A stretch of DNA of 64,000 bases from the NCBI RefSeq assembly GCF_014203155.1, contig NZ_JACHIK010000001.1, positions 248,001-312,000 of the forward strand. Reading direction: 5' to 3'. The stretch is from Shinella fusca (GTDB lineage Bacteria; Pseudomonadota; Alphaproteobacteria; Rhizobiales; Rhizobiaceae). This document shows positions 4,258 to 38,925 of this stretch, piece by piece. Both the position numbers and the translations under genes were made by a program. Each line of letters opens with the position of its first letter. Position 1 is the stretch's first letter. The notes beneath the pieces were generated by a model that worked only from the letters and a program-made list of their open reading frames with translations, did no database searches and was not told where the DNA came from.

Positions 4258-4263
4258 CTATAT
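4258..4263 (+). promoter_or_regulatory. Possible -10 element of ssrA
   Basis: CTATAT lies at the position expected for a -10 box a few bases before the inferred start of the acceptor piece of ssrA. No convincing -35 hexamer lies at the usual spacing: the best TTGGGC, at 4241, is only 11 nt away. Confidence 0.3.
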
Positions 4264-21632: not shown

Positions 21633-21648
21633 TTGAATGAACGTTCAG
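21633..21648. promoter_or_regulatory. BetI-like operator 1 (upstream of Rieske gene)
   Basis: TTGAATGAACGTTCAG, a 16-bp imperfect palindrome with the perfect core TGAACGTTCA, centred 26 bp before the Rieske start. A TATATT (21629-21634) overlapping its left edge may be the -10 box. Same pattern as the sites at 24551 and 30458. Confidence 0.75.
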
Positions 21649-21666
21649 CAAGATATGGGGAGCGAC

Positions 21667-22863
21667 ATGAACGAGATGATCCGCGATATCAGCGTTCCGA
21701 ACGACTGGGACCGCAGCGGGCTTCCGGGCTGGTGTTACCATAGCCCCGCCCTCCTGGAGCTGGAAAAGCAGCATGTCTTCCGCGAGCACTGGCAGATCGC
21801 CTGCCATGTCTCCGACATTCCCGAGCCCGGTAACTACCTCGCCATGGACGTCGTCGGCGAGCGCGCGCTCATCCTGCGCGGGCAGGACGGCGCGGTGCGC
21901 GCCTTTCACAACATCTGCCGCCATCGCGGCTCGCGCCTCGTCGCCGACGAGAAGGGCGCCTGCCGCAACGCCCTCGTCTGTCCCTTCCACGGCTGGGTCT
22001 ACAATCTCGACGGCACGCTGCGCGGCGCCGCGCGCCCGAAGAGCTTTCCCCCGCTCGACAAGGACGAATTCGCCCTGAAGCCGCTGGAATGCGAGGTCTG
22101 GCAGGGTTTCGTCTTCATCCGCTTCGCCCCCGGGCCGCAACCTTCCGTCGCCGAGTTGATGAAGCCCTTCGAGGCGGAGCTGTCGCATTACCGCTCGGAG
22201 GAGATGGTGCCGGCCGGCGATATCTGGACGCAGGAAAGCCCGGTCAACTGGAAATCGGTGCGCGATGTCGACAACGAAGGCTACCACGTCGCCATGGCCC
22301 ATCCGGCCCTGCAGGACCTCTACGGCTCCACCTATTACGACGAGCCCTTCGTCGACGGCCTCTGCCGCTCCTTCGCCACCTACAATCCCCATGCCGGCCG
22401 GCGCTGGAGCGTGCGCAACTACGTCAGGATATCGCCGGAGAACGCGCGCCTGCCGGAGCACCTGCGCAAGGCGTGGATCTATTTCGGCCTCTTCCCCAAT
22501 TGCGTGATCGCCGTGACGCCCGAGACGGTGCAGTTCTACCAGGAGTTCCCGGTCTCCACCGGCAAGACGCTTCTGCGGGGCGGCATCTACCGCTACCGCG
22601 AGGAAGACCGCGCGCACCGCCTCGCCCGCTACCTCGCCTACCGCATCGACCGCGACACGCAGGCCGAGGACGTCCAGCTCACCGTCTGGTCCAACGAGGC
22701 GATGACCTCCAACGCCTTCGCCGGATTCTACCTCTCCGACCTCGAATACGGCGTGCGCACCCACCACGACCACCTGCGCCGCGTGCTGCCGGTGATGACG
22801 CTGAAGGAAGCGCCGGAGGAAAAGGAGATGGCGGGCGTCAATGCCGGGCTGCGGCAGGGCTAG
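21667..22863 (+). CDS. Rieske non-heme iron oxygenase, alpha-subunit type
   Basis: 398 residues. Rieske domain: CRH at Cys84/His86 and CPFHGW at Cys105/His108 bind the 2Fe-2S cluster. Catalytic domain: NWKSVRDVDNEGYHVAMAHP with the mononuclear iron histidines His206 and His211. This is the architecture of aromatic-ring oxygenases and of the N-demethylating enzymes for glycine betaine, stachydrine and carnitine; with a BetI-like operator and amine genes around it, the latter is more likely. No reductase gene is adjacent. The start at 21667 follows GGGGAG; an ATG at 21637 lies inside the operator and is rejected. First and only gene of its unit. Confidence 0.9.
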   Translation: MNEMIRDISVPNDWDRSGLPGWCYHSPALLELEKQHVFREHWQIACHVSDIPEPGNYLAMDVVGERALILRGQDGAVRAFHNICRHRGSRLVADEKGACRNALVCPFHGWVYNLDGTLRGAARPKSFPPLDKDEFALKPLECEVWQGFVFIRFAPGPQPSVAELMKPFEAELSHYRSEEMVPAGDIWTQESPVNWKSVRDVDNEGYHVAMAHPALQDLYGSTYYDEPFVDGLCRSFATYNPHAGRRWSVRNYVRISPENARLPEHLRKAWIYFGLFPNCVIAVTPETVQFYQEFPVSTGKTLLRGGIYRYREEDRAHRLARYLAYRIDRDTQAEDVQLTVWSNEAMTSNAFAGFYLSDLEYGVRTHHDHLRRVLPVMTLKEAPEEKEMAGVNAGLRQG

Positions 22864-22890
22864 GCATCTCCGCCAGGCCGCGGGTGCCGC

Positions 22891-23031
22891 ATGGCTCCTC
22901 GGGTCGAGCCTGAGGATGACGCAGGAAGAAAAGCACGGTGGGCAAAAGCAACATGGCCATATGCCGTACCGCTTGACGGGTGGGAGACTCCTCCTCCCCG
23001 CCGTCATCCTCGGGCTTGACCCGAGGATCCA
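22891..23031. repeat. Inverted pair of 30-bp rhizobial palindromic repeats
   Basis: Two related palindromes face each other in the 198 bp between convergent genes: CCTCGGGTCGAGCCTGAGG within 22891-22922, and CCTCGGG-CTTGA-CCCGAGG at 23008-23026 flanked by CGTCAT and ATCCA. The first reads as the reverse complement of the second, GATGACG against CGTCATC. The same paired arrangement occurs at 59.8 kb. No gene is seen here. Confidence 0.75.
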
Positions 23032-23061
23032 CATCACACGGCAGGCCGGAAACGAAAGGCC

Positions 23062-24477
23062 TCAGCCCTTCCACAGCCCTTCCCGCGTCAGGTCGTCCAT
23101 CGTCAGCTCGATGCCGCGGCGCAGGATCGAGACCATGTCGTCGATCTGCTCCAGCGAGATGGTCAGCGGCGGCGACATCACGCACATGTGGATGAGCGGG
23201 CGCACGAGCAGGCCGAGCTCCTGGCAATGCCGGTCGATGCGCTTGCCCACTTCCAGATCGAGCGTGAGCGGGTTCTTCGAGGCGCGGTCGGCGACGCATT
23301 CGACGCAGGCCATCAGCCCGAGGCCGCGCACCTCGCCGACCAGCGGCAACTCCTCCAGCGCCTTGAGGCTTTGCTGGAAATGATCCGACACGGCGCGCGC
23401 ATGGGCAAGCAGCCCGCCTTCGAGGATGTCGAGGTTCTTCAGCGCCACCGCACAGCCCACCGGATGGCTGGAATAGGTGAGGCCGTGCGCGAACATCGCC
23501 TCGGAGTGGTTCGAGCGGCGCAGCTCCTCGAAGAGCCGGCCGGCGATCATCACCCCGCCGAGCGGGAAATAGCCGGATGTGACCCCCTTGGCGAAGGTGA
23601 TCATGTCCGGCTCGATGCCGAAGACCTCCTTCGAGGCGAAGACATGGCCGAGCCGGCCGAAGGCCGTCACCACCTCGTCGGCGATGAAGAGGATATCGTT
23701 TCGCCGGCAGAGGTCCTGCATGCGCCTGAGGTAGCCGGGCGGCGGCACGATGACGCCGCCGGAGGCCATGACGGGCTCGGCGATGAAGGCGCCGATGCGA
23801 TCGGCCCCTTTCTCCTCGATGACCTGGCGGAACTCCTCCACGAGGAAGTCGCAGAAGGCCTCGACGCTCATGCCGTCCGGCCGGCGGAACGGATCCGGGC
23901 AGGAGAGCTTGACGACGAGATCGGACGCGCTGTCCATCCAGTCGTGGTCGCGCGGCCGGCCGTTGAGCGAGGCCGAAAGATAGGTCGAGCCGTGATAACC
24001 GCCCTGCCGCGAGACGATCAGCTTCTTTTCCGGCCGCCCCTTCACATTGTTGGCGAACTGCATGAAGCGCAACGCCGTCTCGACGGCCGAGGAGCCGCCC
24101 GTCGTGTAGAAGACATGGTCGACACCGTCCGGCGCATGCTCGGCGAGCCGTGCCGAGAGGATCACCGAGGGCGCGTTCGTCGTGTACCAGGGCGAATTGT
24201 AGGAAAGCTCCATGGCCTGCGAGGCCATGACCTCGGCCAACTCCCGGTTGCGGTGGCCGGCATTGACGCACCACATGCCGGCAGGCCCGTCGATCAGCCG
24301 GCGGCCGCTCGCATCCGTCACGTAGATGCCTTCGCCGGCATCGAGCCGGCCGCGCGCCTCCGCGCCGATGGAGCCGGAAACCGGCCAGGGCTGCACCAGA
24401 TGGCGCTCGGCAAGCAGGGTCAGGTCGTCGGCCGCCTCGTCGGCGGGCCCGTTTGCCGTCTTCGGAATTGCCGCCAT
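23062..24477 (-). CDS. Class III PLP-dependent aminotransferase
   Basis: 471 residues. Omega-transaminase fold: PLP Lys297 in [16 protein letters not shown], the aspartate in [15 protein letters not shown], the phosphate loop [14 protein letters not shown], and [18 protein letters not shown]. Members move amino groups from diamines, beta-amino acids or similar omega-amines to pyruvate or oxoglutarate. Start at 24477 because ATGGAGGGAAGC places GGAGG six bases before it; the ATG at 24489 supplies that ribosome site. It lies divergent from the ABC importer genes, with BetI-like site 2 74 bp upstream. Within the cluster it probably handles the amine product after demethylation (inference). Confidence 0.92.
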
Positions 24478-24550
24478 GCTTCCCTCCATCGAATTTCACG
24501 AGAAATATTCTCGACCAACAGCATGAAAGATTTCACTTTTCCAATTCATA

Positions 24551-24566
24551 CTGAATGTTCGTTCAA
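24551..24566. promoter_or_regulatory. BetI-like operator 2 (aminotransferase / ABC importer)
   Basis: CTGAATGTTCGTTCAA, 16 bp; its reverse complement TTGAACGAACATTCAG resembles site 1 closely. Situated in the 209-bp divergent region, 74 bp from the aminotransferase start and 121 bp from the permease start, so it could serve both directions. Confidence 0.72.
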
Positions 24567-24686
24567 TCAATATCGCAGAATCGGGGCTTGATTTCAACGG
24601 GCATTTGAGCGCATGTTGGCGTCGGGAACACTTGAAGCCGAAAAGGCGCGCCGCATGGAAATGGGACATCTCACGCTCTATGAAAG

Positions 24687-25628
24687 TTGTCGCGGCCGGA
24701 GACCCGTCCGTTGACGGCGGCAGCGCTCGGCGCGGCGGCCGACACGCCCCCACCGGCGCGGCAAGGCCGGTGGGTCCGCAGCGAAGAGGCCCGCGGCCTC
24801 GCCATGATCTCGCCGACCTTCCTCTACGCGCTTGCGCTGCTCCTCCTCCCGGTCCTCACCGTCCTCGCCTACAGCTTCTGGACCCAGGACTATCTCGACA
24901 TCGACCGCACCTTCACGCTGGAAAACTACCGGCAGGCCCTCACCGAGCCGATCTACCGCGACCTCTTCGTCCGCTCGCTCTGGATTTCGCTCGTCGTCAG
25001 CGTCGCCACCGTCGTCTTCTCCTATCCCATCGCCTGGTTCATCTCGTTCCACGGGGGCGTGCACCGCAACCTCTGGCTCTTCCTCGTCACCGTGCCCTGC
25101 TGGACGAGCTACCTGCTCCGCGTCATGTCGTGGAAGGTCATCCTCGGCTATGGCGGCGTGCTGAACACCGGCCTCATCTCGCTCGGCCTCATCGACGAGC
25201 CGGTGACCTCGCTCCTCTACAATTCCAACGCCGTCGTCATCACGCTGGTGCATAGCTGGGCGGCCTTCGCCATCCTGCCGATCTACGTCTCGCTGCAGAA
25301 GATCGACCGCACGCTGATCGAGGCGGCGCGCGACCTCGGCGACAGCCGCATGCGCGCCTTCTTCCGCGTCACGCTGCCGCTCTCCCTGCCCGGCGTCGTC
25401 TCGGCCTTCCTCATCGTGATGATCCCGACGGTCGGCGACTACGTCACGCCCCGCCTCGTCGGCGGCAAGGACGGCGTGATGATCGCAACCGCCATCCAGA
25501 CGCAGTTCGGCAAGGGCGCCAACTGGCCGCTGGGCGCGGCCCTTTCCGTCACGACCATGGTGCTCGTCTCGCTGGCCGCCGCCGTCGTCGTCTTCGCCCT
25601 CAAGTTCGCCGTGCGGAGGATCAGATGA
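24687..25628 (+). CDS. ABC transporter permease, PotB-like (spermidine/putrescine type)
   Basis: 313 residues if begun at the TTG at 24687. An in-frame stop at 24681 excludes any earlier start, and no good ribosome site is seen; the next ATG, 24804, starts right at the first helix (MISPTFLYALALLLLPVLTV). Six membrane helices are expected, and the cytoplasmic EAA loop is IEAARDLGDSRMRAFFRVTL, which docks on the ATPase. This is one of two permeases of a polyamine/quaternary-amine type (PAAT/Pot) importer. It overlaps the next permease by 4 nt (ATGA). Confidence 0.88.
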   Translation: MSRPETRPLTAAALGAAADTPPPARQGRWVRSEEARGLAMISPTFLYALALLLLPVLTVLAYSFWTQDYLDIDRTFTLENYRQALTEPIYRDLFVRSLWISLVVSVATVVFSYPIAWFISFHGGVHRNLWLFLVTVPCWTSYLLRVMSWKVILGYGGVLNTGLISLGLIDEPVTSLLYNSNAVVITLVHSWAAFAILPIYVSLQKIDRTLIEAARDLGDSRMRAFFRVTLPLSLPGVVSAFLIVMIPTVGDYVTPRLVGGKDGVMIATAIQTQFGKGANWPLGAALSVTTMVLVSLAAAVVVFALKFAVRRIR

Positions 25629-26449
25629 ACGCCCTCACGCAGCGCCTGCGCCTCATCCCGCTCCTGCCGGCCTATGTCGCGGTCTATTTCCTCTTCCTCT
25701 ACCTGCCGATCCTGCTGCTGCCGGTCTTCTCCTTCAACAACGCGGCGACGACCACCTTCCCGCTCGCCGGCTTCACGACGAAGTGGTACGCCTCGCTCGT
25801 CGGCAACACCGTCATGCTGGAGGCCGCGCGCAACAGCCTCGTCGTCGGCGTCACGGTATCGCTGCTCTCCACGCTCCTCGGCATCTGCGCGGCACGCGCC
25901 ATCACGCGCTACCGCTTCCGCGGCCAGAAGGCGGCCGCCGGCCTCATCATGGCCCCGCTCTTCCTGCCGGAGATCATCGTCGCCGTCTCGCTCCTGATGA
26001 TCGTGCTGGCGATGGGCCTCGAACTCTCGCTTCTCACCGTCATCCTCGGGCAGACGGTGTTCTGCGTGCCCTATGCCATGTCGGTGCTGGTTTCCGGCTT
26101 CGAGGGCTTCGACCGGAGCCTGGAGGAAGCCTCCTACGACCTCGGCGAGACCGCCTTGGGCACCTTCCGGCGCGTGACGCTGCCGGTCGTCGCCCCGGCC
26201 ATCGTCTCCAGCCTCCTCGTCTCCTTCACCATCTCGCTCGACGAGTTCATCCTCGCCTTCTTCCTCTCCGGCACAGAGCCGACGCTGCCGGTCTATATCT
26301 GGGGGCAGTTGCGCTTTGCCGCCAAGCTGCCGGGCGTGCTGGCGCTCGGCACCATCATGCTCGCCGCCTCCATCCTCATGCTCACCTTCGCCGAAATCCT
26401 GCGCCGCCGGGCCGAACGCCGCACGCAGATGGCGCTCATGCTGCCCTAG
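25625..26449 (+). CDS. ABC transporter permease, PotC-like
   Basis: 274 residues with about six hydrophobic helices, the first at LLPAYVAVYFLFLYLPILLL. The EAA motif is LEEASYDLGETALGTFRRVT. The phrase SFTISLDEFILAFFLSG followed by TLPVYIWGQLRF is characteristic of PotC proteins. It pairs with the upstream PotB-like protein to form the membrane channel of the importer. Starts in a 4-nt overlap with the upstream gene, and ends eight bases before the ATPase gene. Confidence 0.93.
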   Translation: MNALTQRLRLIPLLPAYVAVYFLFLYLPILLLPVFSFNNAATTTFPLAGFTTKWYASLVGNTVMLEAARNSLVVGVTVSLLSTLLGICAARAITRYRFRGQKAAAGLIMAPLFLPEIIVAVSLLMIVLAMGLELSLLTVILGQTVFCVPYAMSVLVSGFEGFDRSLEEASYDLGETALGTFRRVTLPVVAPAIVSSLLVSFTISLDEFILAFFLSGTEPTLPVYIWGQLRFAAKLPGVLALGTIMLAASILMLTFAEILRRRAERRTQMALMLP

Positions 26450-26457
26450 GAGCCGAC

Positions 26458-27567
26458 ATGCCCGAACGCCCGATGATCGAGATTGAGAACGTGTCTAAGT
26501 TCTACGGCATCTACAAGGCGCTGGACGACGTGTCGCTCTCCATCGCCGAGGGCGAGTTCTTCTCGCTGCTCGGCCCCTCGGGCTGCGGCAAGACCACGCT
26601 TTTGCGCTCCATCGCCGGCTTCGAGACGCCGACGCATGGCGAGATCTACATCGACGGCGCGCCCTCCCTCGCCCTGCCGCCGAACCGGCGGCCGACCAAC
26701 ATGGTCTTCCAGAGCTATGCCATCTTCCCGCATCTCGACGTGGCGGAAAACGTCGCCTACGGCCTCAAGCGCCTGAAGCTGACGCCGCAGGAAGAAAAGA
26801 AGCGCGTCGGCGACGCGCTCGACCAGGTGCGCCTTTCCGGCCTCGGCCAGCGCAAGGCGCACGAGCTCTCCGGCGGCCAGCGCCAGCGCGTGGCGCTCGC
26901 CCGCGCCCTCGTCATGCGTCCCAAGGTGCTGCTGCTCGACGAACCGCTCTCCGCCCTCGACAAGAAGCTGCGCGAGGAGATGCAGGTGGAGCTGCGCACG
27001 CTGCAGAAGGCCGTCGGCATCACCTTCATCCTCGTCACGCACGACCAGTACGAGGCGCTGGCGCTCTCCGACCGCATCGCGGTGATGTTCGGCGGGCGCA
27101 TCGCGCAGGTCGCCACCCCGAAGGAAATCTACCAGCACCCGCGCACCCGCAAGGTCGCCGACTTCCTCGGCGGCATGAACTTCCTCAAGGCCCGCGTGCT
27201 CGGCGAACAGGCCGGCGCCGTCTCGGTCGACGCGGCCCGCTTCGGCGCGGTGAGCCTTGCCAAGCCGCACGGCTTTTCCGCCAGCGACGGCCACGTCACG
27301 GTCGGCATCCGCCCGGAGCGGCTGCGGCTCCTGTGGGACGACGACCGCGCCCCGCACGAGCTTGCCGGCCGCATCGAGAACCGCGCTTACTTCGGCGAGG
27401 TCACGCATCTTACGGTCGGCATCGACGGGCTGGAAGAACCGCTCTCCATGGTCGAGACGAACAACTACGGCGCCGACGACCTGCCGATCGGCGCGGAGAT
27501 CCGGCTGGCATTCGACCCGGATGCCTTCGTGCTGCTGGCGGAGGATCCGCCGGTGTCGCGGGTGTAG
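26458..27567 (+). CDS. ABC transporter ATPase, PotA-like
   Basis: 369 residues. Nucleotide-binding subunit energising the PotBC-like channel. Walker A GPSGCGKTT at 39-47, Q-loop VFQSYAIFPHLDVAENVAYG, signature LSGGQRQRVALARAL, Walker B LLLDEPLSALDKK and the switch His in ILVTHDQYEALAL. The C-terminal TOBE/regulatory domain starts around IYQHPRTRKVADFLGGMNFL. The ATG at 26458 has an AGGAG site; a much longer in-frame extension is an artefact. Last gene of the permease-permease-ATPase unit; the matching binding protein is encoded across the repeat at 27.6 kb on the other strand. Confidence 0.94.
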   Translation: MPERPMIEIENVSKFYGIYKALDDVSLSIAEGEFFSLLGPSGCGKTTLLRSIAGFETPTHGEIYIDGAPSLALPPNRRPTNMVFQSYAIFPHLDVAENVAYGLKRLKLTPQEEKKRVGDALDQVRLSGLGQRKAHELSGGQRQRVALARALVMRPKVLLLDEPLSALDKKLREEMQVELRTLQKAVGITFILVTHDQYEALALSDRIAVMFGGRIAQVATPKEIYQHPRTRKVADFLGGMNFLKARVLGEQAGAVSVDAARFGAVSLAKPHGFSASDGHVTVGIRPERLRLLWDDDRAPHELAGRIENRAYFGEVTHLTVGIDGLEEPLSMVETNNYGADDLPIGAEIRLAFDPDAFVLLAEDPPVSRV

Positions 27568-27573
27568 AGGCAG

Positions 27574-27721
27574 CCCCTCATCCGGCCTGCCGGCCACCTT
27601 CTCCCCGCAAGCGGGGCGAAGGGACATTGCCGCACCGTTTTCCTCAACAATCTGGCAAGGCATCGCCACCGGCTCCTTCTCCCCGCTTGCGGGGAGAAGG
27701 TCGCGGCAGCGGGATGAGGGG
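27574..27721. repeat. 148-bp inverted-repeat element (RIME-like)
   Basis: The outer arms are complementary over about 35 bases: CCCCTCATCCGGCCTGCCG at 27574 matches, inverted, the run CGGCAGCGGGATGAGGGG ending at 27721. Each arm also contains its own hairpin, CCTTCTCCCCGC-AAG-CGGGGCGAAGG and CTTCTCCCCGCTTGCGGGGAGAAGG-like. It fills the whole gap between the convergent ATPase and binding-protein genes. Matches the general design of rhizobial intergenic mosaic elements; the family name is an inference. Confidence 0.8.
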
Positions 27722-27733
27722 CTTTCGCCCCCC

Positions 27734-28816
27734 TCAATACCCCGACTTGATCTTCTCGAACTCGGCGATCATCTTCTGCCGGAGCTCCGTCGGCATGGGC
27801 GACTGGAAGAGCGTGTTGGCGACGAAGGCGTCGACGTCGGCATAACCCTTGTCCTTGAGGATCTTCGGGTCGACGGCCGCCATGCCCTTGGCGTTGGAAT
27901 GGCCGTAGCCCCAGTTCTCGACCATGTAGGCGGCGACCGCGGGATCGGTGACGGCGTTGAGGTAGTCATAGGCAAGGCCCTCGCTGCCCTCCCCGCCCTT
28001 CAGCCGCACATAGCCGCAGACCCAGGTGGAAAGCCCCTCCTTGGTATCCTTCTTGATGGCGACCGGCTGGCCTTCTGCCTGAAGGGTCGTCGCCGTCTCG
28101 TTCCAGGCCCAGGCGAGGTCCACCTCGCCGCTCGCCATCGCCTGGCTGAGGTCGGTGTTGTCGGTCCAGTAGAGCCGCACGTTCTTGTGCACCTGGCGCA
28201 GGAAATCGGAGGCCTCCTTGAACTGCGCGTCCGTCAGCGTCGTCCAGTCCTTGACGCCGATGGCAAGGCTCGCCAGCGCATAGGCGTCGTCGACATTGTC
28301 GCCGATCGACACGCGGTCCTTGAACTTCGGATCGGCGAAGGCCTTCAGCGAGGCGATCTCCTCGGGCTTGACCGTGTCCGTGCGGTAGGTCAGCACCGTG
28401 TTGCCCCACTCGAAGGGAATGAACCAGGCGGTGCCGTCCGCCGAGGTCATCAGGTTCTTCATCTCCTTGAAGTTCGGCAAGACGTCGTTCCAGTTGGCGA
28501 GCTTGGCCGTGTCGAGCGGCTCCAGAAGACCCGCCTCGCGCCACTTCACGACACTCTGCGAACAGGGATGGGCGACGTCCGCCTTGAAGCCGGAGCGCAG
28601 CTTCTGGAAGGCCTCCTCCTCGTCGCCGAAGAAGGAGAAGTCCGGCGAGCCGCCGTGCTTTTCCGTATAGGCGGGGTGGAAGGCGGGGTCCTCGTAGCCG
28701 GACCAGTCGAACACCGTCAGCGTATCGGCGGCGAAGGCGGGAAGCGCGGTTCCGAGGGCAAGGGCGGCGGCGAAAACCGCCGTGATGGTATGTCTGGCCG
28801 TGTCTGCGTTCTTCAT
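27734..28816 (-). CDS. Periplasmic solute-binding protein, PotD-like
   Basis: 360 residues. Signal peptide MKNADTARHTITAVFAAALA with cleavage near ALPAFA-ADTL. The mature start TLTVFDWSGYEDPAFHPAYT is the usual beginning of polyamine/opine-type binding proteins. Trp/Tyr/Asp residues typical of binding cationic amines occur (VFDWSGYED, LRLYWTDNTD-like, DLAWAWNETAT). Start at 28816 is supported by GGAGA six bases upstream; the frame is open 28 codons earlier. It supplies the substrate to the importer encoded at 24.7-27.6 kb, but belongs to the methyltransferase-regulator unit, 28 nt after the regulator gene. Confidence 0.92.
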   Translation of the reverse strand: MKNADTARHTITAVFAAALALGTALPAFAADTLTVFDWSGYEDPAFHPAYTEKHGGSPDFSFFGDEEEAFQKLRSGFKADVAHPCSQSVVKWREAGLLEPLDTAKLANWNDVLPNFKEMKNLMTSADGTAWFIPFEWGNTVLTYRTDTVKPEEIASLKAFADPKFKDRVSIGDNVDDAYALASLAIGVKDWTTLTDAQFKEASDFLRQVHKNVRLYWTDNTDLSQAMASGEVDLAWAWNETATTLQAEGQPVAIKKDTKEGLSTWVCGYVRLKGGEGSEGLAYDYLNAVTDPAVAAYMVENWGYGHSNAKGMAAVDPKILKDKGYADVDAFVANTLFQSPMPTELRQKMIAEFEKIKSGY

Positions 28817-28844
28817 GCCATTCTCCTTCCCCGTTTCGGGTTCC

Positions 28845-29555
28845 CTATTGTGATCGTGGTCCCTGCAATGTGAGATGCTTCGGGAAGACCGTGGCGACAT
28901 GGGCGATCGCCGCCTCCAGCGCCTTCTCGCGCGTCGTGCCGTCGCCCATCATCAGGCGCAGCCACAGGCCTTCCAGCATGGCGCAGAGCGAAAGCGCCGT
29001 CGGCTCCGGCTCGAAGGCATAGCCGCCCTCCGCCTTGAGCGCCGCACAGAGCGAGATCACGGTCTCCTGGTACTTCACGTCCCGCGCGCCGCAGAGCGCC
29101 TGGTAGGTCGGCCGCGACTTCGCCTCGCCCCAGAAGGCGCACCAGGCGGCAAGCTTGCGCTTGGTGCAGATCTTGCGGTCAAAATCGGCATGGACGAGCG
29201 CCCACAGGCGGCCTGCCGCCTCCGGCCCCGCCTTCTCCAGCGCCGCGTTCCAGTGGTCCGCATATTCCTCGGCCATGAACTGCAGCGTGGCGATGAGCAG
29301 GTTTTCCTTGCTCTCGAAATGGAAGTTGACGATGCCGCGGGAGAGCCCGGCCCCGTCCGCGACATCGGCGAGGGTGGTGTCGGAATAGCCGCGCTTGGCG
29401 AGGGAATCGATGGTCGCCTCGATGAGCTGCTGCCGCCGCGTTTCCTTGGAGGCCTTGCGTCCCCGCTTCTCGCCGTCGCCCGAGCCCTGTTCAGCCGTGC
29501 CTGCCCGCATCTTCACCGTCACCTTGCCCTTGGGGTTCTTCAAAAGCACGGTCAT
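28845..29555 (-). CDS. TetR-family transcriptional regulator, BetI-like
   Basis: 236 residues. After a basic, variable N-terminus (about 1-35) comes a TetR DNA-binding domain: [20 protein letters not shown] then [20 protein letters not shown] and [19 protein letters not shown]. The string RRQQLIEAT and the pattern of the recognition helix recall BetI, the choline/betaine regulator. The C-terminal part ([20 protein letters not shown]) is also BetI-like. It is the natural candidate for binding the three palindromes of this cluster. Its ATG overlaps the methyltransferase stop by 4 nt, so it is cotranscribed with that gene from operator 3 and presumably autoregulated. Confidence 0.9.
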
Positions 29556-30370
29556 GGGCGCATTCCCTCAGCCGGCTTGCTGGCGCGCAGATGAGCCGGA
29601 CAATGCTCTCCGCTGTCAAGGACCTTCTGCATGGCGGTCCAGGTGCGGATGTTCTTCTCGACATAGGCCGCGCCGACGGCCGCCACGGCCTCGGCCCGAA
29701 GCGGCCCCTCGAGGCGCTCCAGCTCGCCCCGCGCCACATCGCGGTACCAGGCGTTGCGGCTTTCCACGCGCCCGCCGGCAAAGCCCGCCGCGGCCATGGC
29801 CGCAAGATAGCGGGCGGGCGAGGCCATGCCGAAGCTGAGGCCCTCGGCGGCGACATAGTCCTTCATGTCCGCGCTCGGCTCGCCGTCATGGCCGATCAGC
29901 CAGTCGGAGGCGGCAAGGACGCCGCCCGGCTTCAGCACGCGGTAGAACTCGGCGAAAAGCGCCTCCTTGTCCGGCACATGGATCATCGCATCCTTGGAGA
30001 AGATAACGTCGAACTCGCCGTCGTCGAACGGCAGGCGCCCCGGCGGGCTCGAAACGAAGCGGGCGACGGAGGAAAGCCCCGCGGCCGCGGCGGCCGCCCT
30101 CGCCCTGTCGATCACCGGCTGCTCCACGTCATAGCCGACGATCTCGGCCGGCCCATGGGCGCGGGCGATATGCAGCGTGATGCCGCCGGCCCCGCAGCCG
30201 AAATCGAGAACGTGCCGGCCGGCGAGATCGACGCCGGAAAGCACCCGGTCGACCTCCTGCGGCCCGCCCGGCGAAAGATAGCCCTCGCCCCAGAGCACAC
30301 CGAGGAAGCGGATCGCCGCCTCGTCGTATTCCGGCTCCGCCGCCGCCCTGTCCCCGCTCGATGCCGCCAT
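29552..30370 (-). CDS. SAM-dependent methyltransferase, PMT-like
   Basis: 272 residues, class I fold. SAM motif [21 protein letters not shown], motif [17 protein letters not shown], and [15 protein letters not shown] then [19 protein letters not shown], which is typical of the phosphoethanolamine (PMT), sarcosine and tocopherol methyltransferase group. The early [19 protein letters not shown] resembles the FGEGFVSTGG segment of PMT. It therefore probably methylates a small amine, which is unexpected in a cluster whose other genes look catabolic. First gene of methyltransferase-regulator-binding protein, 88 bp from operator 3. No ribosome site is obvious. Confidence 0.8.
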
Positions 30371-30457
30371 GGCCTTCCCGCGTTCACGACGCGCCCGGCC
30401 GGCGCGTTTTCATCGGCCGAAATTCTAGCGCATAATCAGGCGATTGCAAGATACTTG

Positions 30458-30473
30458 CTGAATGATCATTCAG
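30458..30473. promoter_or_regulatory. BetI-like operator 3 (perfect palindrome)
   Basis: CTGAATGATCATTCAG is a perfect 16-bp palindrome in the 161-bp divergent region between the methyltransferase and the first flavoprotein. On the plus strand it sits between TTGCTG (30455) and an AT-rich AATATAT, where binding would block RNA polymerase. Confidence 0.8.
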
Positions 30474-30531
30474 AATATATGGACAACATTTTGCTTTTGA
30501 TGCAGCTTTTAGAAACAAGGGAGACATCAAA

Positions 30532-32151
30532 ATGCAGAAGTACGATGCCCTGATCGTCGGCGGCGGCCATAACGGGCTGGTCACGGCCTGCTATCTCCAG
30601 CGCGCCGGCCTCAACGTCCTCGTCGTGGAAAAGAACGGCTGGGTCGGCGGCGCGGCGACCAGCCGCGAGCTGACGCCCGGCTTCCTCTATTCCAACTGCT
30701 CCTATGTCTGCTCCCTCTTCCGCCCGGAGATCATGCGCGATCTCGAACTGCCAAGGCACGGCCTCCAGGTCATCTCCTACGAGGGCGGCGCGGTGTTCAC
30801 CCGCGACGGCGACTATCTCGCCTCCTACCGCGACCATGACAGCCATCGCCGCGAATTCGCCCGCTATTCGAAGCGCGACGCCGAGGCCTACGAGCGCTAT
30901 GCCCGCGACGTGACGCGCCAGTGCCGCTTCATCCAGCCGCTCCTGATGCGAACCGCGCCGGACCCGTTCGGCTTCCGCCCGCGCGACATTTCCGAACTCC
31001 TGTACCTCGCAAAGAAATTCGGCGAATTCAGCCCGCACGAGATGGCCGAGACGCTGCGCTTCTGGACCATGTCGATTTCCGATTTCCTCGACGAATATTT
31101 CGAGACGGACGTCATCAAGGCCTATCTGGCGCTCTCGGGCATCATCGGCACCGCGCTCGGTCCCATGTCGCCCGGCACGGCCTATGTCCTCCTCCACCAT
31201 TATATGGGCGAGGTGGACGGCTCGGTCGGCGCCTGGGGCTATGCGCGCGGCGGCATGGGCGCGGTGACGCAAGCCCTCTCCCGCTCGTTCCTTGCCTCCG
31301 GCGGCACGATCCGCACCGATGCTGAAGTCGCGAAGGTCCTGACGCGCGGCGGGCGCGCCACCGGCGTCGTGCTGGCGAACGGCGACGAGCTGCGCGCCGG
31401 CCTCGTCGTCTCCAATGCCGACGTCAAGCGCACCTTCCTCAAGCTCGTCGACGAGGAGGCGCTTCCCGGCGACTTCGTCCATCGCGTGAAGCATTTCAAG
31501 ACGCGCGGCTCCTCCGGCAAGGTGAACATCGCGCTCGACAGCCTGCCGGAATTCCCGGCCCTCGGCGAAAACTCCACCTGCATGCGCGGCGACATGCATT
31601 TCACCGACAGCGTCGAGCGCATGGAGCGCGCCTATGACGACTGGAAGGCCGGGCGCTGGTCGGCCGACCCGTTCCTCGACATGATGATCCCGACCCTGCT
31701 CGACCCGACCATGACCTCGCCGGGCAAGCATTTCATGAGCTGCTTCGTGCAATATTGCCCGCCGAAGGTAGAGGGCCGCGACTGGACGGATGCCGACCGC
31801 GACGCCTTCGCCGAGACCGTCATCGGCCAGATATCCGATTATTCCCCCGGCTTCCGCGACCGTATCGTGCATATGGAGGTGCGAACGCCGCGCGAGATCG
31901 AGGCGGAGGTGGGCCTGACGGAAGGCAACATCTTCCAGGGCGAGCTCACCTTCGACCAGCTTCTCTTCAACCGGCCGGTGCCGGGCTATGCGCAATACCG
32001 CAGCCCCATCCACGGGCTCTACATGTGCGGCTCCTCCACCCATCCCGGCGGCGGGGTGATGGGCGCACCGGGCCGCAACGCCGCCGCCGAGATCCTGCGC
32101 GACCTCAAGCGTTCCTCCGGAGAGATGAGCAAGGCCCATGACGTCGTTTGA
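30532..32151 (+). CDS. FAD-dependent oxidoreductase, PYROXD2/phytoene-desaturase-like (1)
   Basis: 539 residues. N-terminal FAD Rossmann motif YDALIVGGGHNGLVTACYLQ, then VVEKNGWVGGAATSRELTPG, the usual continuation in the CrtI/amine-oxidase group. The C-terminus carries PIHGLYMCGSSTHPGGGVMG and APGRNAAAEIL, the FAD-closing motif of PYROXD2-like proteins. No signal peptide. It probably oxidises an amine C-N or C-C bond. A strong leader (GGGAGAC) precedes the ATG. Its end overlaps the next gene, a paralogue, by 14 nt, so they are translated together and may form a two-subunit enzyme (inference). Confidence 0.9.
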   Translation: MQKYDALIVGGGHNGLVTACYLQRAGLNVLVVEKNGWVGGAATSRELTPGFLYSNCSYVCSLFRPEIMRDLELPRHGLQVISYEGGAVFTRDGDYLASYRDHDSHRREFARYSKRDAEAYERYARDVTRQCRFIQPLLMRTAPDPFGFRPRDISELLYLAKKFGEFSPHEMAETLRFWTMSISDFLDEYFETDVIKAYLALSGIIGTALGPMSPGTAYVLLHHYMGEVDGSVGAWGYARGGMGAVTQALSRSFLASGGTIRTDAEVAKVLTRGGRATGVVLANGDELRAGLVVSNADVKRTFLKLVDEEALPGDFVHRVKHFKTRGSSGKVNIALDSLPEFPALGENSTCMRGDMHFTDSVERMERAYDDWKAGRWSADPFLDMMIPTLLDPTMTSPGKHFMSCFVQYCPPKVEGRDWTDADRDAFAETVIGQISDYSPGFRDRIVHMEVRTPREIEAEVGLTEGNIFQGELTFDQLLFNRPVPGYAQYRSPIHGLYMCGSSTHPGGGVMGAPGRNAAAEILRDLKRSSGEMSKAHDVV

Positions 32152-33685
32152 TGCCATCGTGATCGGCGCCGGCCATAACGGCCTTGCCGCCGCAACCCGC
32201 CTTGCCAAGGGCGGCCGCAAGGTGCTGGTGCTGGAAGCCGCGAACGCGCCGGGCGGGGCGACGCGCGGCCGGGAGTTTGCCCCCGGCTTCCGCTCGGCCG
32301 GCCTTGCCCACCTCGTCAACCGGCTGGATGCCGACGTCGCCCGCGACATCGGCCTCGACCTTGCCGGCGGAGCGCTGCTGCCGACGACGGTGCTCGACGG
32401 CTCCGGCAAGGCCGTGACGCTCCACGGCGCCTATGGCGAAAGCATCGACGGCGTCTCCGCCGACGAGGCCGCCGCCTTCGCAGCGCTGCGCAAGAAGCTC
32501 GTCTTCCAGGCCGGCATCCTGAAACGCTTCCTGCGCCGCCCGCCGCCGCAGATCGGCGCCATCTCGCTCGGCGACCTCTCCACCCTCGCCGGCGCCGGGC
32601 TCGGGCTCCTTCGCAAGGGCCGCGGCGAGGGCCGCGATTTCCTGCGCATGCTGCTGATGAACGTCGCCGACGTCGCCGACGAATATCTGGCGGACGACCG
32701 CCTCAAGGGGCTGCTTGCCTTCGACGCCACGCTCGGCATCCATCTCGGTCCCCGCTCGCCGACCTCGCTGCTCGGCCTCTACTACCGCCTCACCGGCGAG
32801 GCGGCAGGCAAGACGGGCGGACAGGTCGTGCCGGCCGGCGGCATGGCGTCCATCGCCCCGGCCTTCGTGCGCGCGGCGGAGAAGGCCGGCGTCACCATCC
32901 GCTGCAGCGCGCCCGTCGGCCGCATCCTCGCCGACCGCGGCAGGGCGAGCGGCGTCGTCATGCGCGACGGTACCGAGATTACGGCACCCGTCGTCGTCTC
33001 GGCCATCCATCCGCAGACGACCTTCCTCCACCTCGTCGATCCGGCCGAAAGCGGCACCGGCTTCGTGCGCTCGGTGAAGAACGTGCGCAGCCACGGCAAT
33101 GTCGCCAAGCTCGACCTCGCGCTGGACCGCGTTCCCGATTTCGCAGGCCCGGAAGCGCGGAACGGCCGCATCGTGCTGGTGTGCTCGATGGAGCAGGTGG
33201 AGACGGCCTTCAACCCGGCGAAATACGGCGAATTCTCCCCCGACCCGGTGATGGAGATCACCCTGCCGAGCCTTGCCGACCCGTCGCTCGCCCCATCCGG
33301 CGGCTGCACGCTCTCGGCCCTCGTGCAATATGCGCCCTATCGCCTCAAGGCAGGCTGGGAGGCGGGCAAGCCCGCCTTCCTGAAGATCGTGCTGGACACT
33401 CTGGAGCGCCATGCGCCCGGCATAAGCCGGTCCATCGTCGCGGCCGACCTGATGACGCCGGTGGACATCGAGGCGGAATACAACCTGCCCGGCGGCCATT
33501 GGCATCACGGCGAATTGCAGGCGGACCAGTTGCTCGTCAACCGGCCGACGGGCGCCGCCTCCGGCTATGCGACGCCCATCGAGGGGCTCTACCTCGCCAG
33601 CGCCGGGGCGCATCCGGGCGGCGGCATTTCCGGCCTGCCGGGCTGGAACGCCGCCCGCCACATCCTTTCGGGAGGCAAGCCATGA
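32138..33685 (+). CDS. FAD-dependent oxidoreductase, PYROXD2/phytoene-desaturase-like (2)
   Basis: 515 residues, paralogous to the preceding protein. FAD site FDAIVIGAGHNGLAAATRLA and VLEAANAPGGATRGREFAPG; C-terminal motif PIEGLYLASAGAHPGGGISG then LPGWNAARHIL. Its central part differs from its neighbour and has long Ala/Leu-rich helices (SLGDLSTLAGAGLGLLRKGR). It overlaps the first paralogue by 14 nt and the GcvT-like gene by 4 nt (ATGA), which points to tight stoichiometry. Substrate unknown. Confidence 0.9.
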   Translation: MTSFDAIVIGAGHNGLAAATRLAKGGRKVLVLEAANAPGGATRGREFAPGFRSAGLAHLVNRLDADVARDIGLDLAGGALLPTTVLDGSGKAVTLHGAYGESIDGVSADEAAAFAALRKKLVFQAGILKRFLRRPPPQIGAISLGDLSTLAGAGLGLLRKGRGEGRDFLRMLLMNVADVADEYLADDRLKGLLAFDATLGIHLGPRSPTSLLGLYYRLTGEAAGKTGGQVVPAGGMASIAPAFVRAAEKAGVTIRCSAPVGRILADRGRASGVVMRDGTEITAPVVVSAIHPQTTFLHLVDPAESGTGFVRSVKNVRSHGNVAKLDLALDRVPDFAGPEARNGRIVLVCSMEQVETAFNPAKYGEFSPDPVMEITLPSLADPSLAPSGGCTLSALVQYAPYRLKAGWEAGKPAFLKIVLDTLERHAPGISRSIVAADLMTPVDIEAEYNLPGGHWHHGELQADQLLVNRPTGAASGYATPIEGLYLASAGAHPGGGISGLPGWNAARHILSGGKP

Positions 33686-34914
33686 ACGCCCTGACGACAT
33701 CCGCCGCGGGCCTTCGCCGCGCCGCCCGCAACCATATCCGCACCCCGCGCCTCGAAACGCCGTTCCACGAGCGCCTCGCGGCCCTCAGCGAGGTCAACGA
33801 CTGGTATAGCTGGGCCGGCTACAAGGCGCCGCATTCGCTCTTCGACGGCGAGCTCGAATATTTCGCCATCCGCTCCACCGCCGCCCTCTTCGATATTTCG
33901 CCCATGGTGAAATACCGCATCACCGGCCCGGATGCGGAACGCTACCTCAACCGCCTGACGCTGCGCGACGTGCGCAAGCTCGCCGTCGGCCGCGTGCAGT
34001 ACACAGCCTGGTGCGACGACCACGGCCATGTGCTCGACGACGGCACGCTGTTCCGCCTCGGCGAAGCGGATTTCCGCCTCTGCTGCCAGGAGCGGCACCT
34101 GCCCTGGCTCCTCGACAGCGCTTTCGGCTTCTCCGTCGATATCCGCGAGGAGACGGAAGAAATCGCCGGCCTCGCTTTGCAGGGCCCGACGAGCTACGCG
34201 GTGCTGCGCGACGCCGGCTTTGCCGGCGTGGAAGCGCTGAAACCCTTCGCCGTCGTCAGCTTCCAGCACGAGGGTGGAGAGGTCACCATCTCGCGCACCG
34301 GCTTTACCGGCGACCTCGGCTACGAGCTCTTCGTGCCGCGCGCCAAGGCCCTGTCGCTGTGGGATCGCCTGTGGAGCGCGGGCGAACTGCATGCCATCCG
34401 CGCCATCGGCTACGGCGCGCTGAACCAGGCGCGCATCGAGGCGGGCTTCATCGTCGCCAACACGGATTTCGTCACCGCCGAGGGAGCGCTGCGCGCCGAC
34501 CGGGAGCGCATGCCGGACGAGATCGGCCTCGACTGGCTGGTCGATCCGGACAAGCCCAATTTCAACGGCCGCAAGGCCATCCTCGACGCGCGGCGGAATC
34601 AGACTCTCAAGTACATCCTCGTCGGCCTTGAAATCGAAGGGAATATTCCCGCCGAGCACGCCATCGTCTATCATCGTAAGAAGCACGAGGCAGGCATCGT
34701 CACCGCCGGCATCTGGTCGCCAACGACCAAGCGCAACATCGCCATCGCCAGCCTCGAACGGCCCTACGGGTCGAAGTTCACCGAGGACCTGTGGGTGGAG
34801 ATCTACGCCATGCGGGAATTGCAGTACCAGAAGCTGATGAAGCGCGCGAAGATCGTGCCGCGCCCCTTCGTCAAGCTCGCCCGCCGCACGGCAACGCCGC
34901 CGGGCCTGAAATAG
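33682..34914 (+). CDS. GcvT-like folate-dependent aminomethyl/methyl transferase
   Basis: 410 residues from the ATG at 33682 (GGAGG site, 4-nt overlap with the upstream stop); a 577-codon open frame extends upstream spuriously. GcvT fold: FHERLAALSEVNDWYSWAGY, RSTAALFDISPMVKYRITGP, GLALQGPTSYAVLR and ISRTGFTGDLGYELFVP, the folate-site segment. Relatives transfer one-carbon units from amines (glycine cleavage T, dimethylglycine or DMSP demethylases) to tetrahydrofolate. No GcvH/GcvP is nearby, so glycine cleavage is unlikely. Here it would conserve a methyl group released by the flavoproteins. Confidence 0.9.
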   Translation: MNALTTSAAGLRRAARNHIRTPRLETPFHERLAALSEVNDWYSWAGYKAPHSLFDGELEYFAIRSTAALFDISPMVKYRITGPDAERYLNRLTLRDVRKLAVGRVQYTAWCDDHGHVLDDGTLFRLGEADFRLCCQERHLPWLLDSAFGFSVDIREETEEIAGLALQGPTSYAVLRDAGFAGVEALKPFAVVSFQHEGGEVTISRTGFTGDLGYELFVPRAKALSLWDRLWSAGELHAIRAIGYGALNQARIEAGFIVANTDFVTAEGALRADRERMPDEIGLDWLVDPDKPNFNGRKAILDARRNQTLKYILVGLEIEGNIPAEHAIVYHRKKHEAGIVTAGIWSPTTKRNIAIASLERPYGSKFTEDLWVEIYAMRELQYQKLMKRAKIVPRPFVKLARRTATPPGLK

Positions 34915-34916
34915 AA

Positions 34917-35159
34917 ATGGACGAGGAGACCCGCCGCAACTGGCAGATCGTCACGATGCCGCCCGGCGCCGAGTGGTCCGGGCGCGCGCGCTATGCGGCG
35001 GCCATGTATTTCTGCCAGCGCGGCGAGATGTCGCCGGAGGTGCTGGAGATCTACCGCATCTGTTCGCGGCTCGATGCGGAAGACCCCGTCTCGGTGCTCC
35101 GGCGCTGGAAGCTCGGCGCGGACTGGATAGAGAAGCTCGAAACGTGGCGTTCAGGCTGA
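34917..35159 (+). CDS. Uncharacterised 80-residue protein, last gene of the amine cluster
   Basis: 80 residues beginning MDEETRRNWQIVTMPPGAEW, two bases after the GcvT-like stop, so clearly in the same unit. It is soluble, with one Cys pair region (MYFCQRGEMSPEVLEIYRIC) and a helical C-terminus (SVLRRWKLGADWIEKLETWR). I recognise no family. Its 3' end overlaps the convergent TetR gene by 9 bp. It may be an accessory or small subunit of the flavoprotein pair. Confidence that it is real comes from spacing and codon use like its neighbours. Confidence 0.7.
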   Translation: MDEETRRNWQIVTMPPGAEWSGRARYAAAMYFCQRGEMSPEVLEIYRICSRLDAEDPVSVLRRWKLGADWIEKLETWRSG

Positions 35160-35774
35160 GGGCTGGCGCGGCGCGTAGCTGCCGAAGAGCCGGCTGAGCG
35201 CTTCCTTGCCCTCCCCGGCGATGTCGAACCGCCGGCCGAACAGCAGCCATTCCGAGCAAAGCCCCTTGATGACCCAGCGCAATTGCGCCGCTGCCGCGCG
35301 CGGCGTCCAAGAGGCGCAGAGCTTGCCCTGCCGCTGGGCCTTGGCGAAGGCCGCCTCCAGCGCCTGCATGTGCTCGTCGTCGATGTCGTTCTGCCGCTCG
35401 GAGATGGCGGCGAACTCGCCGCCGGCATCGCAGCGCAGGAGGATCGAGAGGATGCGCTGGCGGTGCTCGTCGGCGGCCAGCACGTCGAGCCATTCGCGGC
35501 CCACCCGCTCCAGCACGCCGAGCACGTCGGCATTGTCCGCCTCCAGCTCGCGGGCGATCAGCTCTTCCTGCGGCAGCGGCAGGGAACTGTAGAGTTCCAG
35601 CACGAGGTCCGCCCGGTTGGCGAAGTGCCAGTAGATGGCGCCGCGGGTGACCCCCGCGGCGCGCGCCACATCCTCCATGGAGGCATGGGCGACACCCTTT
35701 TCATAGAAGACCCGCTCGGCCGCCAGCAGGATCTGCTGGCGGGTTTCCTTGGCCGCGGCCTTGGTCCGGCGCAT
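35151..35774 (-). CDS. TetR/AcrR-family repressor of the adjacent efflux pump
   Basis: 207 residues. DNA-binding domain ETRQQILLAAERVFYEKGVA then SMEDVARAAGVTRGAIYWHF and ANRADLVLELYSSL. These are the AcrR/TtgR type; the C-terminal domain ending RWVIKGLCSEWLLFGRRF is the TtgR/AcrR ligand-binding kind. Transcribed as the third gene of adaptor-permease-repressor, starting 6 nt after the permease stop, which allows autoregulated feedback. The inverted repeat at 40265-40288 upstream of the adaptor is the likely operator. Confidence 0.92.
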   Translation of the reverse strand: MRRTKAAAKETRQQILLAAERVFYEKGVAHASMEDVARAAGVTRGAIYWHFANRADLVLELYSSLPLPQEELIARELEADNADVLGVLERVGREWLDVLAADEHRQRILSILLRCDAGGEFAAISERQNDIDDEHMQALEAAFAKAQRQGKLCASWTPRAAAAQLRWVIKGLCSEWLLFGRRFDIAGEGKEALSRLFGSYAPRQPSA

Positions 35775-35780
35775 GGCGGC

Positions 35781-38915: not shown

Positions 38916-38925
38916 CGTCGGATCC

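Follow-up and report, generated by a model that had tools for sequence, protein, structure and literature searches.

A conserved, apparently co-regulated twelve-gene cluster in Shinella fusca, possibly for the catabolism of an N-methylated amine

In the window, the 64,000-nucleotide stretch of Shinella fusca DNA analyzed here, twelve genes between positions 21637 and 35159 form a co-inherited unit, a reading supported by conserved gene order, co-occurrence and operators. The cluster is apparently co-regulated as one unit under a shared operator-like site, and we rate it an uncharacterized, widespread catabolic regulon. With moderate confidence, we propose that this regulon is substrate-induced and serves the catabolism of an N-methylated, probably quaternary, amine. 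Computation established which genes make up the set, their order, their co-occurrence and the shared site; all of the biochemistry, the repressor–operator pairing and the substrate class are what we infer. Open reading frames and family searches bore out the preliminary description of twelve contiguous genes in five probable transcription units, with every reading frame present and the families as claimed; the units were assigned from strand and spacing.

21637-22863, + strand, unit 1: alpha subunit of a Rieske oxygenase (start probably at 21667)
23062-24489, - strand, unit 2: class III aminotransferase (AT; NCBIfam NF005447/PRK07036)
24687-25628, + strand, unit 3: PotB-like ABC permease (permB), by family match
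25625-26449, + strand, unit 3: PotC-like ABC permease (permC), by family match
26458-27567, + strand, unit 3: PotA-like ABC ATPase, by family match (start codon ATG at 26458, correcting an earlier reading)
27734-28816, - strand, unit 4: PotD-like periplasmic binding protein (SBP), polyamine acids replaced, aromatic site retained
28845-29555, - strand, unit 4: TetR regulator with BetI-type C-terminal domain, by domain matches
29552-30370, - strand, unit 4: phosphoethanolamine-N-methyltransferase-like SAM methyltransferase (MT), by sequence matches
30532-32151, + strand, unit 5: FAD1, CrtI/CrtO-superfamily flavoprotein, by family match
32138-33685, + strand, unit 5: FAD2, paralogue of FAD1, by family match
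33682-34914, + strand, unit 5: GcvT-like folate-domain protein, by domain match and solved relatives
34917-35159, + strand, unit 5: ORF80, small protein, all-helical in its predicted model

Gene order was compared across 80 loci from other genomes, drawn from a one-genome-per-species collection. The order FAD1-FAD2-GcvT is kept in 78 of them, and contig ends cut the remaining two. FAD1 has the highest median identity among the cluster proteins (84.3%, 82 loci); its paralogue FAD2 evolves faster (median 60.0%, 82 loci). Every one of 38 cluster genomes, a subset of the 80 that we chose, encodes a close Rieske orthologue (56-92% identical). Among relatives, such an orthologue occurs in 19 of 22 genomes with a close FAD1 and in 0 of 19 without one (Fisher p 8e-9, uncorrected for relatedness); in three order-level relatives (G028, G033 and G037) FAD1-FAD2-GcvT is present and no close Rieske gene was found. 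At the threshold used, the aminotransferase falls below detection in six of the 38 genomes, four of which carry a HemL-like one in the locus, and the MT is missing from 11. Order and co-occurrence are thus conserved, and the genes are not scattered among unrelated pathways. The set had been described as matching no characterized pathway, and the literature gave no description of such a gene set or pathway, although most subscription journals lay beyond our coverage and absence is unproved. No shared gene set was apparent for the homarine, TRIS, nicotine, glycine betaine or TMA pathways, which were therefore set aside as candidates.

The second line of evidence is the palindrome TGAAYGNNCRTTCA, whose three reported copies upstream of the units were recovered as exact matches placed ahead of all five.

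21634-21647, palindrome 1: TGAATGAACGTTCA, overlapping the listed Rieske start and upstream of the probable one
24552-24565, palindrome 2: TGAATGTTCGTTCA, between the AT and permB genes, which diverge
30459-30472, palindrome 3: TGAATGATCATTCA, between the divergent MT and FAD1

Across the 4.85-Mb genome, TGAATGNNCNTTCA and TGAAYGNNCRTTCA each match exactly at those three sites only, and the reversed control patterns match 0 times and once, respectively. Allowing two mismatches gave five matches in the window against a shuffle mean of 5.26, which is chance level, so only exact or near-exact matches are meaningful. At one mismatch or fewer, 87 loci (1.74 Mb) hold 121 matches, 116 of them in windows upstream of cluster genes, versus one match for the reversed control in the same loci; these counts exclude the duplicate loci L105 (the same as L075) and L106 (the same as L043). 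The site precedes FAD1 in 74/82 cases, AT in 28/28, permB in 26/27, MT in 59/61, Rieske in 9/11 and TetR in 13/79; at the same stringency none was found upstream of SBP (0/72), ATPase (0/61) or ORF80 (0/77). Since conserved copies of the palindrome recur at corresponding promoters across loci, we read the cluster as a regulon.

The site also stands ahead of two genes lying away from the cluster, the AT of L125 and the Rieske gene of L127. A wider claim, that relocated cluster genes retain the operator in five genomes, was dropped, and only these two stand. L124 duplicates the L075 locus; the G016 Rieske contig stops 56 bases past the gene and the L128 MT sits near a contig start, so that either may truly adjoin a cluster. 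The clusters of L088, L090, L092/L130, L132 and L133 yielded no operator, and none was detected ahead of the Rieske gene of L129 or of the AT of L126, which lies apart. G021, G030 and G035 have one to three exact matches despite having no cluster, and G033 has three, none of them on the contig that carries its FAD1.

We take the palindrome to resemble BetI sites, and we infer its pairing with the cluster's TetR repressor. The regulator had been called BetI-like, which stands as a resemblance of domain and family: PF13977 (TetR_C_6, BetI-type) and TetR_N, the domains of BetI itself, score 62.1 and 47.1 bits, both above their gathering scores. It misses both BetI cut-offs, however, with 116.5 versus 201.3 bits for TIGR03384 and 110.6 versus 118 bits for NF001978, and its putative regulon differs from betIBA.

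The Rieske protein offers the first indication of a substrate class. Its probable start is 21667, because palindrome 1 overlaps the ATG at 21637 and shorter orthologues exist; those of L036 and L076 are open from residue 11 only, and others are annotated with 397 aa. The 2Fe-2S ligand motif is present, and we take His217, His222 and Asp378 to be the iron ligands, from alignment and recall. The best solved matches are CntA (122.6 bits) and 3vca/4qup, presumably Stc2. Like the group V enzymes CntA, GbcA/BmoA and Stc2, the protein has the Rieske ligands, a bridging Glu and a His-His-Asp site, but it aligns with them by sequence over the N-terminal half and the start of the active site only. Glu214, two residues ahead of the iron-site Tyr-His and kept in a ten-row alignment, aligns with the Glu of CntA and 3vca; one study describes the bridging role of this residue for CntA (PMC7948474). 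That study also gives position 203 of CntA as Tyr/Phe in group Va and Asn in group Vb (PMC7948474), whereas the cluster protein has Asp212 there, invariant in the ten rows. A Cys-X-X-Cys by the iron site, a feature of some group V enzymes only (PMC10952381), is not present; Gly215 and Val218 occupy those positions. The GbcA model (NF058607) gives 141.4 bits against a cut-off of 670, and a structure model from ten sequences reached pLDDT 42. The likeness to carnitine monooxygenase suggests an N-methylated, probably quaternary, amine.

The GcvT-like protein points the same way. It carries a PF01571 GCV_T domain (194.4 bits), and its closest solved relative, ranked first at 181 bits, is the C-terminal part of TMAO demethylase. 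Its DDG motif aligns with Tdm, and the DD with GcvT; D119 and D120 are conserved in 98% or more of 87 rows, and the aspartate of this acidic motif is presumably the functional residue of the folate site. As a whole the protein stays below the cut-offs of the glycine cleavage T model TIGR00528 (173.2 vs 235.85 bits) and of TMAO demethylase NF053776 (256.2 vs 1100 bits, the match being confined to the C-terminal part). Its closeness to TMAO demethylase suggests an N-methylated amine substrate. Tdm, sarcosine oxidase and DMGO all match it, and the cluster shares with these systems a C1-transfer domain and proposed amine-oxidizing partners. Compared with the folate-coupled amine demethylases (TMAO demethylase, dimethylglycine oxidase/dehydrogenase, sarcosine oxidase), however, the folate protein is stand-alone, and the flavoproteins form a tandem pair that best fits CrtI/CrtO models, not the DAO type as a whole; against the CrtO carotenoid ketolase model NF045689, FAD1 scores 310.6 and FAD2 195.2 bits (cut-off 1000).

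Taken together, a model for the regulon can be drawn. The PotD-like protein and the ABC transporter would bring the compound in, and the BetI-like TetR would occupy the three palindromes until binding of substrate or product frees them. Oxidative removal of the first N-methyl group would fall to the Rieske oxygenase, drawing on an NADH reductase whose gene lies elsewhere; FAD1, partnered by FAD2, would oxidize the remaining N-methyl groups to the iminium, whose carbon the GcvT-like protein would pass to tetrahydrofolate; and the class III aminotransferase would convert the freed primary amine to an aldehyde or oxo-acid. The MT and ORF80 would be accessory, the MT perhaps re-methylating partly demethylated analogues. 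Metabolism of an N-methylated amine, as proposed in the preliminary description, is thus favored as a class by several sequence signs, while its biochemical steps stay conjectural. More tentatively, FAD1, FAD2 and the stand-alone GcvT-like protein may make up a new folate-coupled oxidative N-demethylase behind a new Asp-using Rieske clade, opening an unrecognized methylated-amine pathway in Rhizobiales and Rhodobacterales. Such a complex would possibly rest on phytoene-desaturase-type flavoproteins, where sarcosine oxidase and dimethylglycine oxidase use a DAO-type flavin domain, and the Rieske clade would possibly read the substrate ammonium via an aspartate, not the tyrosine or asparagine of known quaternary-amine oxygenases.

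A narrower version of this model names a carnitine-family betaine (gamma-butyrobetaine, delta-valerobetaine, beta-alanine betaine or trimethyllysine), fully demethylated to an omega-amino acid that the aminotransferase then transaminates; we hold it doubtful, at roughly one chance in three. Class III aminotransferases commonly use omega-amino acids, and the cluster's enzyme scores 695.9 bits (cut-off 618) against NF005447/PRK07036, a family described merely as 'aminotransferase'; 4-methylaminobutyrate oxidase, with FAD and folate domains and GABA as product, is a precedent. The L102/L120 stretch carries a carnitine 3-dehydrogenase gene (697 bits, cut-off 592) together with crotonobetainyl-CoA-hydratase-like, acyl-CoA dehydrogenase and BKACE genes, and the rhizobial loci L031 and L038 have a carnitine-dehydrogenase-like gene, 48% identical to that of L102/L120, and a CoA-ligase-like gene. 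Acyl-CoA dehydrogenase and CoA ligase genes lie in L089, L091, L102 and L103, and PuuC/BADH-like aldehyde dehydrogenase genes in L089, L091 and L102. Carnitine genes beside three clusters suggest an N-methylated, probably quaternary, amine. The link to carnitine genes is not general, however, because among the 80 loci, over the stretch covered for each, the dehydrogenase matches only in L031 and L038 and the CoA ligase only in L031, L038, L089 and L091; the genome to which the window belongs has its carnitine genes 120 kb away, with no exact operator. Rhizobiales glycine betaine and carnitine catabolism presumably shares with the cluster a Rieske demethylase, a BetI-type regulator and the substrate class, and a carnitine locus is present in the Shinella fusca genome. 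Since this genome has genes outside the cluster for carnitine 3-dehydrogenase, two SoxA and further FAD/folate-domain proteins, the cluster would be an additional route.

The importer bears on ordinary polyamine catabolism, in which a Pot importer, an FAD polyamine oxidase and a putrescine-type aminotransferase would act together. The transporter and aminotransferase have polyamine proteins among their relatives, and the distant locus L085 has an agmatinase and a gamma-glutamylputrescine-synthetase-like gene nearby. The cluster shares the four-part architecture of PotABCD and its best family matches, yet its proteins fall below all Pot model cut-offs. No polyamine route known to us uses a Rieske or a GcvT-like protein. 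One study has PotD binding the spermidine amines through Glu36, Glu171 and Asp257 (PMC4096761); in all 74 SBP rows (two from duplicate loci) Gly replaces Glu36, Cys replaces Asp257 and Asp stands for Glu171, so that the PotD contact set is not reproduced, while the aromatic W34, Y37, W229, W255 and Y293 are retained. With these acids lost, the Pot-type importer, earlier credited with bringing in cations, does not imply a polyamine, and we judge this reading improbable. Loss of the acids with the aromatics kept suggests an N-methylated, probably quaternary, amine.

Equally improbable in our view is a biosynthetic cluster, in which an imported precursor would be methylated by the PMT-like MT and the flavoproteins would act as desaturases or ketolases. 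The MT does resemble phosphoethanolamine N-methyltransferases: Tyr15, Asp127 and His131 (SxDxIxHI region), which we take to be catalytic, align with plant PMTs and are conserved in at least 98% of 60 rows, as expected of the PMT type, and the MT shares the operator region in 59 of 61 loci. Against this stand its absence from 11 of the 38 genomes at the threshold used, a folate-domain enzyme, binding-protein importer and repressor that suit catabolism, and the lack among the twelve genes of any that builds a scaffold or exports. A methyltransferase within a demethylation regulon also counts against our preferred mechanism; the earlier demethylation scheme gave it no role, and we treat it as optional.

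ORF80 matched no Pfam family, and its predicted structure (pLDDT 96) matched no PDB fold at E 0.001. A search of 385 genomes from 277 genera of the class returned the window's own copy only, which says little about absence across the family. A GcvT-ORF80 fusion in L037 and L039, where long reading frames span both, was dropped because the frames from coordinates differ. In Shinella zoogloeoides an extra NADH:flavin oxidoreductase adjoins ORF80; this is not general, occurring in four loci, two of them the same plasmid. Least probable is that the substrate is a sulfonium or another methylated onium, with the GcvT-like protein acting like DmdA and an ORF80-fused cupin like DMSP lyase. In its favor, the ORF80 domain is joined to a PF16867 DMSP_lyase cupin in L090, L130 and L132, and the DmdA model matches the GcvT-like protein; but that match reaches 114 bits against a cut-off of 410, the cupin occurs in those three loci only, and the aminotransferase and Rieske N-demethylase relatives suit nitrogen better.

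A large share of the organic nitrogen in soils and the sea consists of methylated amines, and the best-known routes for their use end, to our knowledge, at choline, glycine betaine, carnitine and trimethylamine. Because the set recurs in 80 loci and comes with both an importer and a dedicated operator-like site, its substrate can be sought directly by growth tests and ligand screening. Should FAD1, FAD2 and the GcvT-like protein indeed act as a folate-coupled demethylase, they would give this central one-carbon reaction a second type of flavin architecture.

The twelve open reading frames at 21637-35159 set out in the preliminary description are real and belong to the families it named; they fall into five probable transcription units, and the 80-residue protein, ORF80, has no Pfam family.

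Layout of the cluster, left to right
Rieske oxygenase alpha subunit: leftmost of the twelve genes
Class III aminotransferase: next after the Rieske gene, opposite strand
Two Pot-type permeases (the PotB-like one termed permB) and the ATPase: right of the aminotransferase
PMT-like methyltransferase (MT), TetR regulator and PotD-like binding protein (SBP): minus strand, a single run
Paralogous flavoproteins FAD1 and FAD2, GcvT-like protein and ORF80: right end, gene ends overlapping or abutting

Right of ORF80 (35151-38993) are a further TetR gene, matched in 14 loci, and an RND-type efflux gene recognised by eye; no operator copy lies in this region. Elsewhere, ARAGORN predicts a tmRNA gene at 4256-4598 (flagged tmRNA*; tag ANDNYAEARLAA).

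We consider the cluster to be, on balance, a repressor-controlled regulon through which an N-methylated, probably quaternary, amine is taken up and oxidatively degraded; the order of the pathway steps is offered as a proposal. The three palindromes previously described upstream of the units were borne out as exact copies of the 14-nt operator-like sequence TGAAYGNNCRTTCA (21634-21647, 24552-24565 and 30459-30472), with no further exact match in the 4.85-Mb genome. Three sites could suffice for the five units, since the second and the third each lie between a divergent pair. The first overlaps the listed Rieske ATG; a start at 21667 appears likelier, since several orthologues start later.

Allowing at most one mismatch, we counted 121 palindrome matches in 87 loci (89 minus two repeats; 1.74 Mb), 116 of them between -250 and +30 of cluster genes, against a single match for a reversed control pattern in the same loci. 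At this threshold, the operator preceded FAD1 (74/82), the aminotransferase (28/28), permB (26/27), MT (59/61), the Rieske gene (9/11) and TetR (13/79), and was absent upstream of the internal genes for SBP (0/72), ATPase (0/61) and ORF80 (0/77). The MT and FAD1 counts are not independent, nor are those of the aminotransferase and permB, as each pair shares one divergent region in most loci. Within the genus, two or more exact sites lie at the cluster in every one of the 17 genomes that bear it, our own included, and the four genomes lacking the cluster have none genome-wide. The site also precedes two genes located away from the cluster, the aminotransferase gene of locus L125 and the Rieske gene of L127. 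The rule is not perfect, with one to three exact matches in each of three genomes without the cluster (G021, G030, G035). In G033, three exact matches lie on contigs other than that of its FAD1, and five genus genomes (G002, G005, G006, G010, G012) have additional sites elsewhere. No operator was found in clusters L088, L090, L092/L130, L132 and L133, or before the genes that stand apart in L126 and L129. We infer that the cluster's TetR gene encodes the protein binding the palindrome.

Gene order held up on comparison among relatives. Scanning the GcvT-like protein against one-genome-per-species contigs returned 93 relatives; among the best 80 loci, mostly from Shinella, Rhizobium, Pararhizobium and Mesorhizobium with some Rhodobacteraceae and Kiloniella, the FAD1-FAD2-GcvT order is kept in 78, the other two being cut by contig ends, and ORF80 directly follows in 73. 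Across 41 genomes, our own included, FAD1 was called close from 71% identity upwards and the Rieske orthologue from 72%; 22 carry a close FAD1, and 19 of these also have a close Rieske orthologue, versus 0 of the other 19 (p 8e-9, uncorrected for relatedness). At the thresholds used, 38 genomes selected from the 80 to span the range possess the Rieske orthologue (38/38), the aminotransferase (32/38) and MT (27/38). In four of the six lacking the aminotransferase, the locus encodes a class III enzyme of HemL/GntE type, which suggests that amine-aldehyde transamination is needed and its enzyme exchangeable. The HemL/GntE-like enzyme stands beside FAD1 in the place of the PRK07036 aminotransferase in L089, L090, L091, L092, L102 and L103, an apparent non-orthologous replacement. 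FAD2 is in two pieces with an apparent frame change in one Shinella genome (L010, G001:C2:1860701-1862243), and stops interrupt the matched stretch of some Rieske copies (G010, G434, G439, G457).

All five aromatic residues that we take to line the PotD site are kept in 74/74 SBP rows. PMC4096761 identifies three acids contacting the spermidine amines in PotD; of these, Glu36 and Asp257 are lost in SBP and Glu171 is replaced by Asp. With the aromatics kept, these changes are easier to reconcile with a single bulky cation than with a polyamine.

The nearest solved structure to the Rieske protein is carnitine monooxygenase (122.6 bits), and the bridging glutamate (Glu214) and iron-site histidines are kept. 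PMC7948474 sorts quaternary-amine oxygenases into subgroups on whether CntA position 203 holds Tyr/Phe or Asn, whereas the cluster's protein has Asp212, and it lacks the Cys-X-X-Cys that PMC10952381 places in some of these enzymes; it thus falls outside the published subgroups. For the GcvT-like protein the best match is TMAO demethylase, in its folate domain (181 bits), and the scores stay below the cut-offs of the glycine cleavage T protein, TMAO demethylase and DMSP demethylase models; FAD1 and FAD2, labelled PYROXD2-like in the preliminary description, likewise match CrtI/CrtO models below cut-off. Of the whole set, FAD1 is the best conserved, with a median identity of 84.3% over 82 loci (FAD2, 60.0%), as expected if it carries the conserved active site. 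MT is closest to plant phosphoethanolamine N-methyltransferases, with the Tyr and Asp/His positions kept, and is the least explained part: it shares the common operator region, yet is missing from 11/38 genomes.

Among narrower proposals for the substrate, betaines of the carnitine family come first, tentatively. The distant G037 cluster (L102/L120) adjoins a carnitine 3-dehydrogenase that scores 697 bits against a cut-off of 592; also beside it are a crotonobetainyl-CoA-hydratase-like gene, an acyl-CoA dehydrogenase and a BKACE. Acyl-CoA dehydrogenase and CoA ligase accompany the cluster in L089, L091, L102 and L103, and a PuuC/BADH-like aldehyde dehydrogenase in L089, L091 and L102. In rhizobial L031 and L038 (Peteryoungia aggregata, Hoeflea marina), the cluster's 21-kb stretch holds carnitine-dehydrogenase-like (48%) and CoA-ligase-like (27-30%) genes; no carnitine-dehydrogenase match was found in the compared stretches of the remaining loci. 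The genes beside the clusters of G037, L089, L091, L103, L031 and L038 resemble gamma-butyrobetaine/carnitine functions.

A fusion of the ORF80 domain with a DMSP_lyase-type cupin (PF16867; 62.5-77.7 bits, cut-off 27) occurs in three clusters, which come from two Paracoccaceae and one unclassified Pseudomonadota MAG and each carry two Rieske genes; this fusion is the only hint to ORF80's association.

ORF80-PF16867 fusions
L090:17634-18584
L130:6176-7060
L132:24647-25498

In a Shinella zoogloeoides plasmid copy, a 678-aa OYE-type NADH:flavin oxidoreductase (L135:16639-18675) separates ORF80 from the next TetR gene; it has no match in the window. Four Rieske genes surround FAD1-FAD2-GcvT in another plasmid copy, L133 (Parasedimentitalea marina pW43C), together with a BKACE-type gene, a GNAT protein and a 679-aa flavin oxidoreductase. 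L098 (G016:C3:94000-112000) is a paralogous module with a PotABCD-like importer, PuuC-like aldehyde dehydrogenase, FAD1-like (40%) and GcvT-like (31%) proteins, and no Rieske gene or operator; it may perform the same chemistry on another amine.

Searches of open-access literature yielded no published description of such a gene set. The organism's own genome encodes, 120 kb from the cluster, a carnitine/gamma-butyrobetaine-type locus (G000:C1 ~400700-407700, L149; 416000-428000, L150) comprising, by eye, BKACE, carnitine 3-dehydrogenase, acyl-CoA dehydrogenase, CoA ligase and enoyl-CoA hydratase, then transporters, an aldehyde dehydrogenase and two FAD/folate-domain proteins. Genes for two sarcosine oxidase alpha subunits are found at other places in the genome. 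Because these functions are encoded elsewhere, the cluster is an extra route and not the standard betaine route.
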